NCBI GenBank assembly: GCA_017656235.1
Contig: JACDOF010000006.1
Coordinates: 1-64,000, forward strand
From: Brevibacillus sp.
GTDB lineage: Bacteria; Bacillota; Bacilli; Brevibacillales; Brevibacillaceae
DNA length: 64,000 bases
Direction: 5' to 3'
The position numbers and the translations under genes are program-made. Below, piece by piece: positions 35,438 through 56,228 of the stretch; the stretch's first letter is position 1; every line of letters begins with the position of its first letter. Under the pieces are notes generated by a model. That model had not been told where the DNA came from. It ran no database searches and worked only from the letters and a program-made list of their open reading frames with translations.

Positions 35438-35959
35438 CCGTACTATAACTCCCTTCTCAAGTGAGCAAACCAGATGAAAGCTTTCCGTCCCTGTATGCTA
35501 TGCAGCACGGTTCCTGTTTGCACCTAGCCTGCTCAGCGTCACCCTTTCAGCATACTGGATGAGCAGGGTGAATACAACATCTACTGACTGTTTCTTGGCG
35601 GGTTTCATACGCTATAAACGCTATAAAACGGAGGGATGAGCCATGAATGATTATCTCCTCTACTGCTCCATGGGTGGTTGGCAACGGAGTGAGGGGAGGA
35701 AAATGGCCGCTCTCCTGTCACACGCGTTGACTTGAGACGAACAGGGCATCATACGGTACTGGTCGGAACTAAAAACTCTCGCCGGGAACGAGTGCGGGCC
35801 GTTTTTCGCCTGCGAGCGGTTTGGCCAACCTGCCAGCGAAACGACGTATCCGCTTCTTCGCTGGTTGGCCACCGAAAGCGAGCGCGAAAAACGCCCCACT
35901 CGTGTTCACGATACGTTGTATGGATCTGAAAGGGGGCACTTTCGGCCCCCTTCTTATTC
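35438..35959. repeat. Intergenic region with long palindromic repeat, copy A
   Basis: A 522-base gap. Positions 35786-35907 form a long imperfect palindrome: outer arms GAACGAGTGCGGG ... / ... CCCACTCGTGTTC, inner arms GGCCAACC (35823-35830) and GGTTGGCC (35863-35870), plus GTTTTTCGC/GCGAAAAAC. The same unit recurs at 54.8-55.1 kb with near-identical arms. A separate 31-base piece (35677-35707) is the reverse complement of a piece flanking that second copy. Translations of the antisense frame are coincidental. No transposase is present. Confidence 0.8.
35643..35735 (+). CDS. Possible 30-residue micro-ORF
   Basis: An ATG preceded by CGGAGGGATGAGCC starts a 30-codon frame (MNDYLLYCSMGGWQRSEGRK and on) ending at TGA. 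A TATAAA lies just upstream. It lies within the repeat-bearing gap and its 3' half coincides with the repeat module, so it may simply be a chance frame. Very tentative. Confidence 0.15.
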   Translation: MNDYLLYCSMGGWQRSEGRKMAALLSHALT

Positions 35960-40084: not shown

Positions 40085-40320
40085 CGAAACTGCTTATGCG
40101 CGTCCGGACCGTGACGAGCACCGTTGCCTGGCCAACCGAGCGTAAGAAACGTGAACGCGGGGGAAAAGCAAGGGCAACTCGGCGCTGCTCTGAGTTGCTG
40201 AGCCGGTTTGTCCTCCCCCCGCGGATCGTTTCGCAGCGGGCAGTCGTGCTTCTTTGGCTTCTTTGCTGGTCAGGCAACAGCGCGAGCAGGACTTTTGGCC
40301 CCTTCGGACTCATTATCAAA
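40085..40320. repeat. Repeat region C (palindromes and a 28-base block shared with copy B)
   Basis: This gap has no gene. 40158-40223 forms an imperfect palindrome (CGCGGGGG ... GCAACTC / GAGTTGC ... CCCCCCGCG). Positions 40265-40292 are identical to 55065-55092, and the following bases (CCCCTTCGG versus CCCTTCGGG) also align. The area is therefore a partial relative of the repeats at 35.8 and 54.8-55.1 kb. Confidence 0.65.
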
Positions 40321-52942: not shown

Positions 52943-54019
52943 CTATTCCTTCCCTCTCTCCTGTCCCTTGGCCTGATTGCGGGCGTGCAGTTCCTTGATC
53001 AGCCGGTTATGGTCGTCAGGCGAGGCCGTCAATTCGTCCAGCTTCTTCAGGATCGACGGCGGGTACATCTGCTCCAGGCTGGTTCGGTACAGACCCCCAT
53101 CCTTGGGCATCTGGTGTCCGGTCACCTCATAGCCGCTGCCGGCCGGCTCGATCGAAAACGTCATCGGTGCACTGAAGCCGGAACCGTTTCCTTGGCTGTC
53201 ACCATCACCTACGGGAGACTCGACCAGCGCCCAGGCATAAACCGTTTTGTATCCGGGCTGTTCACTCTCGATCCCGATGATCTGGATACTGGCGTAGCGA
53301 GGTTTGCCGATCCAGGAGAAGTCTCTGTGATTGGCCGTCTCCAGGTAGGTTGTAATCAGCGGTTCGACGATCGCCTGCGTGCCTGCCGAGTATCCTTCCT
53401 TCACTTCGACAAACAGGTGGCCCAGTGGTTCGTCGGCATCGAATACCTCCAACTTCCAGATGCCTGGGGAGGGAAGGGCAAACCCAGTCACGAGATGAGC
53501 GGCTGCGTCGTACAGCGGCTTGCCCGGTTTGTAGCTGCCCAGATCGATCTGCTCACCATGTTGGCTGACGCCGGATATGTGCACCCTGTCCGTGCGAGCA
53601 TCGTCAAGAAGCCAGGTAACCCGCTGGGCCTGCTTTTCATAAAAGGAACCGCTGATGATCCGCACAGGTTTTTGGCCGTAATAGCTGAAGGCCGTGCCTT
53701 GATAGCTGCCCACGGCTAGTGGGGAGGGCTGCCACGCTGCCGCTTCTCCCGGTCTCACGGCGAAGCGATCCGACCCGGCCCCCTGCCAGCCTGCCGGATT
53801 TCCCGTCAACTGCTGCAGCGTGAGGATGACAAAAAGGGAGCAAGCAGCAAGCGCGGTACCGACCACCCAGTGAAAACCATTCCAAAACTGTGAACGATTC
53901 CGCTTTTTGGCAATTCGCTCCCGGACATGCTGCTCCATCTGCGGTGTAAAGGTGAGGTCGCGCAGGTAACGGTTATCTGCTGACTCCTTCAGCTCCCGCA
54001 GCAATTTGTCTATATCCAT
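52943..54019 (-). CDS. Probable anti-sigma factor, DUF4871-like extracellular domain
   Basis: A 358-residue single-pass membrane protein: a soluble N-terminus of about 45 residues (KLLRELKESADNRYLRDLTFTPQMEQHVRERIAKKR), one transmembrane helix (GFHWVVGTALAACSLFVILTLQQL) and a beta-rich outside domain. Gene order and overlap (10 bases) with an upstream ECF sigma factor suggest it sequesters that sigma. It lacks the HxxxCxxC zinc motif of ZAS anti-sigmas. The outer domain with repeated GKPRYASIQIIGIE, SPGIWKLEVFDADEPLG resembles DUF4871 (YhfM-like) as best I can judge. It ends at a terminator. Confidence 0.65.
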   Translation of the reverse strand: MDIDKLLRELKESADNRYLRDLTFTPQMEQHVRERIAKKRNRSQFWNGFHWVVGTALAACSLFVILTLQQLTGNPAGWQGAGSDRFAVRPGEAAAWQPSPLAVGSYQGTAFSYYGQKPVRIISGSFYEKQAQRVTWLLDDARTDRVHISGVSQHGEQIDLGSYKPGKPLYDAAAHLVTGFALPSPGIWKLEVFDADEPLGHLFVEVKEGYSAGTQAIVEPLITTYLETANHRDFSWIGKPRYASIQIIGIESEQPGYKTVYAWALVESPVGDGDSQGNGSGFSAPMTFSIEPAGSGYEVTGHQMPKDGGLYRTSLEQMYPPSILKKLDELTASPDDHNRLIKELHARNQAKGQERGKE

Positions 54020-54564
54020 CCCAGCCCCTCCTCCATCATCATTTTCTTTAACTGCTGACGGGCGCGGTGCAGCCTGGTACGTACCGCTCCTTCCGTCAAA
54101 CCCAATACAGCGGCCGTCTCCGCAATAGACAATTCCCCGTAGTAGTGCAAAACAATCACCTGTCGATGACGGAACGGCAGAGCCATGACCAAACGGGTAA
54201 CATCATCCCGGTCAAGCTTGTTCAGCGCTTCCGCTTCAACACTGGCGCCGCTCCTGCTCTCAATAACGTCCATTGGTACGATCTTGCGAAACGCCCATGA
54301 GCGCAGATATCCTTTGCACTCATTGACCGCAATCCGGTAAACCCAGGTGTGAATTGAGCTTTCCCCGCGAAAATGCGGCAAATGCCGGTACACTTTGACG
54401 AACACTTCCTGTGTGATGTCCTCGGCCAGATCGCGATCCCTTACGAAGAAGTAAACCAATCTCAGCAGCTTGGTCCCGTATTGGCGCATCAACTGTTCCA
54501 ATTGAGCTTCCGGCGTACTCGCCAAACGGTCCCACTGTTCCTGCTCATCCGACAGCTGCCACAC
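54010..54564 (-). CDS. ECF-type RNA polymerase sigma factor
   Basis: A sigma-70 group 4 protein of about 184 residues. Region 2 is LMRQYGTKLLRLVYFFVRDRDLAEDITQEVFVKVYRHLPHFRGESSIHTWVYRIAVNECKGYLR. Region 4 is VMALPFRHRQVIVLHYYGELSIAETAAVLGLTEGAVRTRLHRARQQLKKMM. The start is unclear: GTG at 54564 abuts AAGGGGG, a CTG at 54555 is ideally spaced (8 bases), and the longer frame to 54663 would cover the likely promoter. It resembles SigX/SigV-like envelope-stress sigmas and overlaps its anti-sigma gene. Confidence 0.88.
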   Translation of the reverse strand: MWQLSDEQEQWDRLASTPEAQLEQLMRQYGTKLLRLVYFFVRDRDLAEDITQEVFVKVYRHLPHFRGESSIHTWVYRIAVNECKGYLRSWAFRKIVPMDVIESRSGASVEAEALNKLDRDDVTRLVMALPFRHRQVIVLHYYGELSIAETAAVLGLTEGAVRTRLHRARQQLKKMMMEEGLGWI

Positions 54565-54597
54565 CCCCTTGCGTTGCTGTTCCTGTCTCCTGTCTAT

Positions 54598-54625
54598 AGA
54601 TACAATAACCCCACCAGCTGTTACA
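54598..54625 (-). promoter_or_regulatory. Possible autoregulatory ECF promoter
   Basis: Minus strand: TGTAAC (54620-54625), 16-base spacer, GTATCT (54598-54603), resembling ECF promoters (TGtAAC -35). It would let the sigma factor drive its own operon. Confidence 0.45.
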
Positions 54626-54695
54626 AAAAACCTGGGGAAAATCGCATGCAGGATTTTCCTCATTCAAAAAAGCAAAATCGCGTAGTCGAAGGGAT

Positions 54696-54732
54696 AGAAA
54701 AAGAGCTTAAAACGCTTCATCGTTTTAAGCTC
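54696..54732 (-). terminator. Terminator downstream of the M24 peptidase gene
   Basis: A perfect 12-base stem, GAGCTTAAAACG (54703-54714) with CGTTTTAAGCTC (54721-54732), followed by TTTTTC on the minus strand. The repeat element lies between it and the peptidase stop. Confidence 0.85.
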
Positions 54733-54771
54733 ACAGCTTGTAGACAAAGGGTGTCTGGATAGGGAGAAGCA

Positions 54772-55110
54772 GCCATTTTCCTCTTCACTCCATTGCCAAC
54801 ACGGTGCTGACCCAGTTTCAAAGCTCTCGCACGGGACGAGTGTGGGCGGTTTTTTCGCCAGCGAACGGTTTGGCCAACCTGCCAGCGAAACGGCGTATCC
54901 GCAGGGAAATCGCAGCGGCAACAGCATCACGTCGGCAGCGGGACGTCGTTTTGCCGCTGCCCCTGCGGATCGTCGTGAAGCGGTCTTGAACTGCGTCTTC
55001 GCTGGTTGGCCCCCTTACGTGAGCGCGAAAAACGCCCCACTCGTGTTCACGACACGTTGTCTTCGCTGGTCAGGCAACAGCGCGAGCAGGACGATTGGTC
55101 CCTTCGGGAC
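54772..55110. repeat. Long palindromic repeat, copy B, with nested hairpin
   Basis: 54861-54902 matches 35812-35853 at all but about two positions; 54998-55060 matches 35857-35919 closely, with a long identical run around GCGCGAAAAACGCCCCACTC. Between these arms, where copy A has only three bases, B holds about 95 extra bases that form their own hairpin: CCGCAGGG/CCCTGCGG, GCAGCGGCAA (54912-54921)/TTGCCGCTGC (54951-54960), ACGTC/GACGT. A 28-base tail (55065-55092) equals 40265-40292. The 54772-54800 flank is an inverted copy of 35677-35707. No gene is present. Confidence 0.82.
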
Positions 55111-55136
55111 ACTTTGTCTCCTGTCTGAGCTTCATC

Positions 55137-56228
55137 TCAACCGAGCACTGTCAATTCTTTTGGAAAGCTGGTCAGCACTTCAACGCCAGAATCTGTCACC
55201 AATACGTCATCCTCAATCCGGACACCGCCCCATCCCGGCAGGTAGATGCCCGGCTCGATCGTAAAGACCATGCCAGGCGCAAGCTCATCCTGATTTTCAC
55301 CGTGAACGGATGGATATTCATGCACCTCCAGCCCCATTCCGTGTCCCAGCCGGTGTATGAAGAATGAGCCATAGCCGCGATCAGCGATTAGCTGGCGAGC
55401 CGTCCGATCCAGCGAGGCAACCGAGGCACCGGGCTTGACCGCTGCTATCGCCGCCTGGTTGGCTGCCAGCACCGCTTCATACACCTCACGCTGCTTTGGC
55501 GTCACCTCACCCACGACAAACGTGCGTGTAATGTCTGAAACATAACCATCCGCCGCCACGCCCATGTCGATCAGCAGAAAATCGCCATTTTGAATGCGGC
55601 GTTGGCCGGGAACACCGTGCGGCATGGCAGAATTTTCGCCGACCAGCACCATCGTGTCAAATGACGGGCCTTCAGCCCCCAGTTTTTTCATCAGGTACTC
55701 CAGTTCGGCGACCAGCTCGGCCTCTGCTTTACCGACCGTAACGTTTTTCAGTCCCTCCTTAAGTACGAGCTCGACGAGGTGAACCGCCCGCTTGATTCGT
55801 TCGATCTCATCCGGGGACTTGCGCAGCCGAAGCGAACGGAGCACAGGTTCCACATCGAAGTACTCCTTTACCTCCAGCACAGCCGACAACTCTTCGTAGC
55901 GCGTAACGGACATGTGTTTCTTCTCAATTCCCATCCGGGTCGTACGCGGCGGAAGCGACGCTTTGACCACCTGGTACGGATCTTCCGTATCAGCGACACC
56001 GACAATGTTTCCAACGACAGACGCTTGCTTGGCCGCCTCGATATCCAAAGCAGGCACGATCAGCACCGGCTCTTCCCCCTGCGGCAGGAGAAGTCCCAGG
56101 AAGCGTTCATGTGGTTCTGTCAGAAAGCCTGTCAGGTAAAAGACGTGCTGCGGAGAGGTCAAAAGCAGCGCCTCTGCTCTCTCTTCTTCCATGAATGCGT
56201 ACAGCTTTTCCAGTCGGGTTTGGTACAT
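55137..56228 (-). CDS. M24-family Xaa-Pro aminopeptidase (YqhT-like)
   Basis: A 363-residue creatinase/prolidase-fold metallopeptidase. The N-terminal domain (RLEKLYAFMEEERAEALLLTSPQHVFYLTGF) precedes the pita-bread domain with the metal ligands: LIDMGVAADGYVSDITRTFVVG (two Asp), HRLGHGMGLEVHEYPS (His), GMVFTIEPGIYLPGWGGVRIEDDVLV (two Glu). It removes N-terminal residues before proline. It may use peptides brought in by the neighbouring ABC transporter (inference). Upstream 224 bases to oppC hold no gene. Confidence 0.9.
   Translation of the reverse strand: MYQTRLEKLYAFMEEERAEALLLTSPQHVFYLTGFLTEPHERFLGLLLPQGEEPVLIVPALDIEAAKQASVVGNIVGVADTEDPYQVVKASLPPRTTRMGIEKKHMSVTRYEELSAVLEVKEYFDVEPVLRSLRLRKSPDEIERIKRAVHLVELVLKEGLKNVTVGKAEAELVAELEYLMKKLGAEGPSFDTMVLVGENSAMPHGVPGQRRIQNGDFLLIDMGVAADGYVSDITRTFVVGEVTPKQREVYEAVLAANQAAIAAVKPGASVASLDRTARQLIADRGYGSFFIHRLGHGMGLEVHEYPSVHGENQDELAPGMVFTIEPGIYLPGWGGVRIEDDVLVTDSGVEVLTSFPKELTVLG

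Follow-up and report, generated by a model that had tools for sequence, protein, structure and literature searches.

The closest known analogue in behaviour of the element family described here appears to be YPAL (RU-2) of Yersinia. In the passages that describe it (PMC2229807), YPAL is a small palindromic repeat that is not A+T-rich, lies in many intergenic copies and duplicates 3–26 bp of targets that span or adjoin a dyad symmetry, and its mobilising enzyme is left unnamed. Our family has the same small palindromic form and many copies between genes; it is not A+T-rich either, its target duplications also vary in length, and its enzyme too is unnamed. However, the same passages describe YPAL as about 168 bp long, with inverted repeats inside it and an open reading frame, whereas the units here are about 250–270 bp long with terminal repeats, fall into three hairpin types, form composites of up to 613 bp and are flanked by duplications of 17–37 bp that are terminator-like hairpins. 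The host, judging by its gene content, probably also belongs to a different phylum. The likeness to the 167–168 bp YPAL repeat is one of behaviour as described.

Other systems share single features with the family. For example, IS1272 and TnSha1, of the IS1182 family, also target terminator hairpins without a primary sequence consensus, but according to the relevant passages (PMC4923244) they insert bluntly, delete part of the hairpin, make no duplication and have their own transposase; here, the hairpin is instead present on both sides of 29 of the 44 elements examined. Similarly, IS1549 and the IS1634 family have long direct repeats of variable length without a model, as is the case here, but they are autonomous insertion sequences of 1.5–2 kb, and hairpin targets are not mentioned in the passages concerned (PMC2266710). 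The pneumococcal BOX, RUP and SPRITE repeats are, like ours, structured repeats that occur in clusters and insert into each other; as far as they are described in PMC10969869, terminator-like sequence is part of the SPRITE repeat, whereas here it serves as the target and varies from site to site. Finally, MITEs are typically A+T-rich and under 500 bp, in the words of part of the same source (PMC10969869). The elements studied here have the terminal inverted repeats of a MITE (CAG..AGACAAAG / CTTTGTCT..CTG, common to types I, II and III and to the composites) and, in the 29 of 44, a target site duplication, but one copy (copy B, below) has 58.9% GC and the longest composites exceed the usual size. 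A+T-richness and a length under 500 bp are usual and not obligatory MITE features; we regard the family as MITE-like and as behaving like YPAL, and claim no membership of YPAL or of any IS family.

The window, a stretch of 64,000 nucleotides from a 3.6 Mb genome in 31 contigs (G000), contains the element with which this work is concerned (copy B), a second copy of the same hairpin (copy A) and a truncated element of another type (Table 1). Copy B is a mosaic of a type I left end from which most of hairpin I is gone, hairpin II and a type III right end. The junction where the remainder of hairpin I is absent is identical in a copy at a different place, C5:152722-153058, as expected if the deleted form had moved. 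By eye, the sequence of its right terminal part also ends two type III elements (L223 and L209) on the right. As RNA, copy B folds at -176.2 kcal/mol (z -5.0 against 100 shuffles), and its GC content compares with 55.0% for the window. It starts about 9 nt after the stop codon of the M24 peptidase gene. A search of Rfam gave no matches at gathering score in the window.

Table 1. Positions of copies A and B, their parts and neighbouring features in the window.
Feature	Position	Strand	Basis
Copy A, type II without model positions 102-190 (loop)	35753..35928	+	
Terminator-like hairpin adjoining copy A right end	35929..35953	+	by eye
Truncated type III element	40109..40307	+	84% identity to type III query
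ECF-type sigma factor gene, left neighbour of copy B	54010..54663	-	Pfam Sigma70_r2, r4_2, Sigma70_ECF
Terminator-like hairpin adjoining copy B left end	54703..54732	+	12-bp arms, 6-nt loop
Copy B, 394-bp mosaic element with both ends	54734..55127	+	end-PWM matches at 54734 (25.2 bits) and 55127 (19.5 bits)
Left end and residue of hairpin I in copy B	54734..54799	+	left-end pattern at 54743
Type II module (hairpin II) of copy B	54801..55062	+	nhmmer 298 bits, model positions 1-261
Nested hairpin, forming the regular tip of hairpin II, with a stem, an AAATC bulge on the 5' side, a second stem and a loop	54897..54970	+	
92 bases in B, missing from A	54901..54992	+	pairwise alignment
Right terminal part of type III in copy B	55063..55127, left limit approximate	+	by eye
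Possible remnant of second hairpin copy, GAGCTTCATCTC	55127..55138	+	not above control
M24 peptidase gene	55137..56228	-	Pfam Peptidase_M24, Creatinase_N

When flanks were compared, hairpin II often proved to be joined on its left to another, different giant hairpin of similar rank, the two halves making up a unit of about 570 bp that opens with CAGCGTGTAGACAAAGGGTGTC and closes with GACACTTTGTCTGCAATCTG. Hairpin III stands alone in elements of 253 bp, and small deletion forms of I and II, as well as mosaics, could also be read. In the genomes G035 and G036, hairpin I is solitary, in elements of about 262–271 bp. The proposal made in the sequence-only reading, that copy B belongs to a modular element family, is thus borne out by three hairpin types and their composites with one common pair of ends. 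Allowing up to three mismatches, a search of G000 for the end patterns found at least 21 left-end and at least 41 right-end places, and a position weight matrix (PWM) of the ends matched 127 times in 309 kb, against 20 times in one mononucleotide shuffle. Tandem arrays of elements with short spacers, as if one target had been hit repeatedly, lie at C10:60139-61159 and C11:46211-46899 of the same genome. Element copies also stand at contig ends or no more than about 140 nt away from them (C2:113, C5:1, C13:89872 and C23:17387), so the draft assembly may break at such copies and undercount them.

Among the 39 genomes searched of the host's taxonomic family, its own included, type II occurs in one and type III in two (at least 21 matches in G000, counting two adjoining parts of one place, and at least two weak ones in G037, a genome of another genus), while type I occurs in three, which are all the searched genomes of the genus (at least 19 matches in G000, 15 in G035 and 19 in G036); all these copy numbers, from pattern and BLAST queries, are lower bounds. 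The type I relatives in the other two genomes of the genus are about 70% identical. At about 1480-1702 of locus L244 in G037, a type III-like sequence has the right end GACTTTGTCTGCAAACTG, which is nearly the same as that of the family. Outside these genomes, an exact 23-mer of hairpin II had no matches in the wider genome contigs, a search for exact matches only that may miss the nearest records; an exact 19-mer of hairpin I, searched for in the same way, had three (Streptomyces, a planctomycete and a Muribaculaceae bin), which we take as chance. A search of the open literature returned nothing recognised as this element family.

In G000, end pairs of 24 elements were picked by hand from the 127 PWM matches and 45 bp per side were compared; 13 of the 24 scored above 21.5, the 99th percentile in a control of 552 mismatched flank pairs. 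The control maximum of 54 came from two adjacent C10 elements with a common spacer, and the next-best mismatched pair scored 30. Several of the duplications are perfect and abut the element ends, for example 21 bp at C1:124323-124698, where AGGCATCCGCACCGGATGCCT stands on each side; 27 bp at C1:1118147-1118759 and 24 bp at C2:69504-69756 are likewise perfect. In the relatives G035 and G036, which together have at least 34 type I matches, 20 loci were studied, and 16 of these exceed the maximum of 380 controls, the count having been 13 before three right boundaries that overshot were shortened. No clear duplication was found in 11 of the 24 G000 elements or in four of the 20 elements of the relatives. 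Copy B is among the former (score 16), with a clear hairpin on its left and at best a remnant on its right.

In the 29 positive elements the duplication is 17–37 bp long (median 24) and has the features of a terminator. The 13 duplications of the relatives' first set fold at -0.60 kcal/mol/nt, compared with -0.13 for 169 nearby stretches, none of which was as low as the median. Beyond the right copy there is a T-rich tract in 22 of the 29, and ahead of the left copy an A-rich one in 15; at least one such outer tract is present in 28, compared with 1017 of 5000 random places. When 15 nt of flank were included per side, the uninterrupted central stem ended no more than 3 nt from both edges of the duplication in 18 of 29 elements, a number that rises to 24 with a limit of 5 nt, and in this the family resembles YPAL, with its variable-length duplications at dyad-symmetric targets. 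Many YPAL targets reportedly overlap rho-independent terminators, according to a 2006 study. When the duplication was folded alone, 25 of 29 had their outer pairs no further than 3 nt from both edges, a figure that is biased, as such a fold cannot pass the duplication. By the outermost pair of the whole flanked fold only six of 29 came within 3 nt, because the A/T tracts and other pairs lengthen that fold. The duplication covers the main stem and loop of the terminator, and its edges are near, though not always at, the base of the stem. Crude ORF calls around the 20 elements of the relatives showed no preferred gene orientation (++ 5, +- 6, -- 5, -+ 4). At C3:227593-228026 of G000, the flanking hairpins, with total lengths of 23 and 31 nt, have the same stem and different loops, which suggests that once a hairpin has been duplicated its loop changes more quickly than its stem.

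We consider it probable that these elements constitute a non-autonomous mobile family of at least three giant-hairpin modules, moved by a trans-acting transposase that duplicates terminator hairpins. Common ends, many copies, composites and copies of the same hairpin on both sides of 29 elements are direct observations. Beyond them, a putative transposase acting in trans would recognise a terminator hairpin, possibly in the form of an extruded cruciform or of exposed single strand, and would make staggered cuts in the two strands, close to the stem base on either side. The element ends would then be joined, and repair of the 17–37 nt gaps would duplicate the hairpin, so that the element would separate the near copy of the hairpin from the T-run. 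Because the near copy adjoins the CAG end of the element and not a T-run, transcripts of the upstream gene are predicted to pass through the giant hairpin and to stop at the far copy. The sequence-only reading had also suggested a site-specific insertion mechanism, for which there is evidence in the case of whole elements entering terminator-like hairpins and no support in the case of a hairpin inserted at a tip.

A more specific form of transposition, which we put forward tentatively and at somewhat below an even chance, is that the enzyme reads shape. The cuts would flank the stem base of the extruded hairpin, the length of the duplication would follow that of the hairpin, and the tip of the element would be kept by double changes as a recognised or copied structure. 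Blocks picked by eye show that types II and III and locus L242 of G037 have a common tip plan, namely a stem, an A-rich bulge on the 5' side only, a second stem and then 29–35 nt. Between II and III, five of the 17 pairs in the tip stems differ, and each is a double change. Such changes are explained alike by selection on the fold and by hairpin-templated repair.

The search of G000 for a mobilising enzyme covered two transposase families. A mobiliser of the Y1/RAYT, IS200/IS605 kind (REP-type, HUH) was a candidate from the outset, but its domain (PF01797) had no matches in G000, while the control matched in five of 14 genomes. Relict DDE transposases, truncated or interrupted, are present at C12:16.6-20 kb; Pfam gives only DDE domains, and we take the relicts to be IS1182-like, IS3-like and IS1634-like. 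Several of them lie together at C12:16604-19988 (L202, L294), with an apparent fragment of a group II intron protein beside them and an element match (C12:22104-22285) some 2 kb away. The IS1182-like relict was rejected as a partner, at 24.2 bits against a Pfam cut-off of 25.1 and with GACAAAG absent in the 7 kb read, and so was the IS1634-like relict, around which matching ends are absent. Around the C12 relicts, the search for a transposase whose ends match those of the elements found none, and 13 left-end loci were read by eye only.

An enzyme of the IS1634 or IS1182 family would make our preferred explanation more specific, and we think it unlikely, although it has some attraction. Duplications of 8–514 bp for which no model is proposed are described for IS1549 and IS1634 in part of PMC2266710, terminator hairpins are the targets of IS1272 (IS1182 family) in passages of PMC4923244, and the C12 relicts do include DDE transposases. 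However, those relicts are truncated or interrupted, the only GACAAAG ends around them are those of the element copy at 23 kb, and the family names are our own reading, Pfam assigning DDE domains only. Furthermore, IS1272 removes some of the hairpin without duplicating its target, according to the same passages (PMC4923244).

It is also conceivable, though we hold it to be distinctly improbable, that no transposition is involved, and that the elements are transcribed structured RNAs or terminators under selection, spread by recombination, with the paired hairpins serving as functional double terminators. Strong folding and base pairs preserved between species would fit, as would the tandem arrays on C10 and C11 with their hairpin-like spacers. 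In a consensus fold of 28 type I elements from three species, 96.5% of cells are paired, compared with 90.4% in shuffles; both sides are changed in 93 cells against 35.5, and the covariation score is 0.233 against 0.135 in shuffled and 0.034–0.080 in slid alignments, a result that we also count in favour of our preferred explanation. Two further measures do not favour structure: 12 pairs with double changes were reached by 260 of 500 shuffles, and 27 further pair types were reached or exceeded in all 500. Many of the double-changed cells may reflect few ancestral events. In type II, covariation is absent (one of 37 pairs, term 0.07, 35 loops), and for that reason we claim no RNA function from this type. 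Against an origin without transposition, the flanking hairpins of the 29 positives match within a site, several of them perfectly, and not between sites, the best of the 552 mismatched pairs reaching only 30 once the shared C10 spacer is excluded; moreover, one internally deleted form is found at two different places.

The nested hairpin of copy B was the starting point of this study. The sequence-only reading had described three paired blocks within it, and all three are found where they were claimed: CCGCAGGG (54899-54906) pairs with CCCTGCGG (54961-54968), GCAGCGGCAA (54912-54921) with TTGCCGCTGC (54951-54960), and ACGTC (54929) with GACGT (54942). The third is weak, being variable among copies and absent from the consensus fold of 35 copies. 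The hairpin has a single asymmetric bulge, AAATC, on its 5' side only, and its DNA fold has an energy of -25.9 kcal/mol, compared with -14.1 +/- 2.08 in 200 shuffles, none of them as good (z -5.67). Alignment likewise confirmed that both arms are common to copies A (35753-35919) and B, and that B has an extra block, of 92 nt and not the roughly 95 first estimated, with a GC dinucleotide at each border.

That reading had further taken the block for a palindrome inserted at the tip of another, and had allowed that most copies might instead be long-looped and A a deletion derivative; the latter is what we found. G000 was searched with 54800-55115, with three patterns and with copy A, and a type II profile built from 29 copies was run by nhmmer on the retrieved genome pieces, giving at least 67 matches above 45 bits. 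Of the listed matches, 40 reach across the loop, from model position 90 or lower to position 205 or higher, and all 40 have the long loop, with DNA length minus model span between -9 and +5 nt; of the others listed, 10 lie left of the loop or run into it and 17 lie right of it or begin inside it. In a stricter set of 37, 35 have 141–143 nt between the arm motifs, and two are fully displayed with the loop. Copy A and C8:122888-123022 each give one match on either side of the loop, and among the matches listed above 45 bits no others have both arms and a short loop. Nor does the supposed insert occur alone, since all 36 listed matches of the loop pattern in G000 fall within element matches that reach the left arm.

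The short copies carry scars. In copy A, whose left part we read as rearranged, TATCCGC remains from the start of the loop stem, its partner gone, while C8:122888-123022 retains the 5' arm of the loop hairpin and lacks model positions 121-202, a different interval from that missing in A. A third copy, C1:484726-484885, lacks positions 47-133, with its breakpoint at 484771/484772 and a left part of only 16.8 bits. With differing breakpoints and hairpin pieces retained in both, copy A and the C8 copy look like deletions, and together with the C1 copy like independent ones. Deletion scars and the majority of copies suggest that the long loop is ancestral, within a type confined to one of the 39 genomes and with no outgroup; copy A would be an element that later lost its tip. 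The nested hairpin of copy B is the ordinary tip of hairpin II, a giant-hairpin module. The opposite course, a site-specific insertion of a hairpin into the tip of a shorter palindrome with A ancestral and B derived, would account for the single 92-nt block at the tip that separates the two, but is highly implausible in view of the uniformly long loops, the differing leftovers in A and the C8 copy, the other breakpoints of the C1 deletion, the confinement of the loop pattern to elements and a comparable nested tip in type III.

In summary, a terminator hairpin left on both sides would mean that such an element could spread without removing transcription stops, and insertion would put a giant hairpin into the 3' untranslated part of neighbouring mRNAs. 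For long and variable duplications, which are described without a model in passages on IS1549 and IS1634 (PMC2266710) and are variable in YPAL too (PMC2229807), the family suggests a rule, namely that the duplication is the target hairpin itself.
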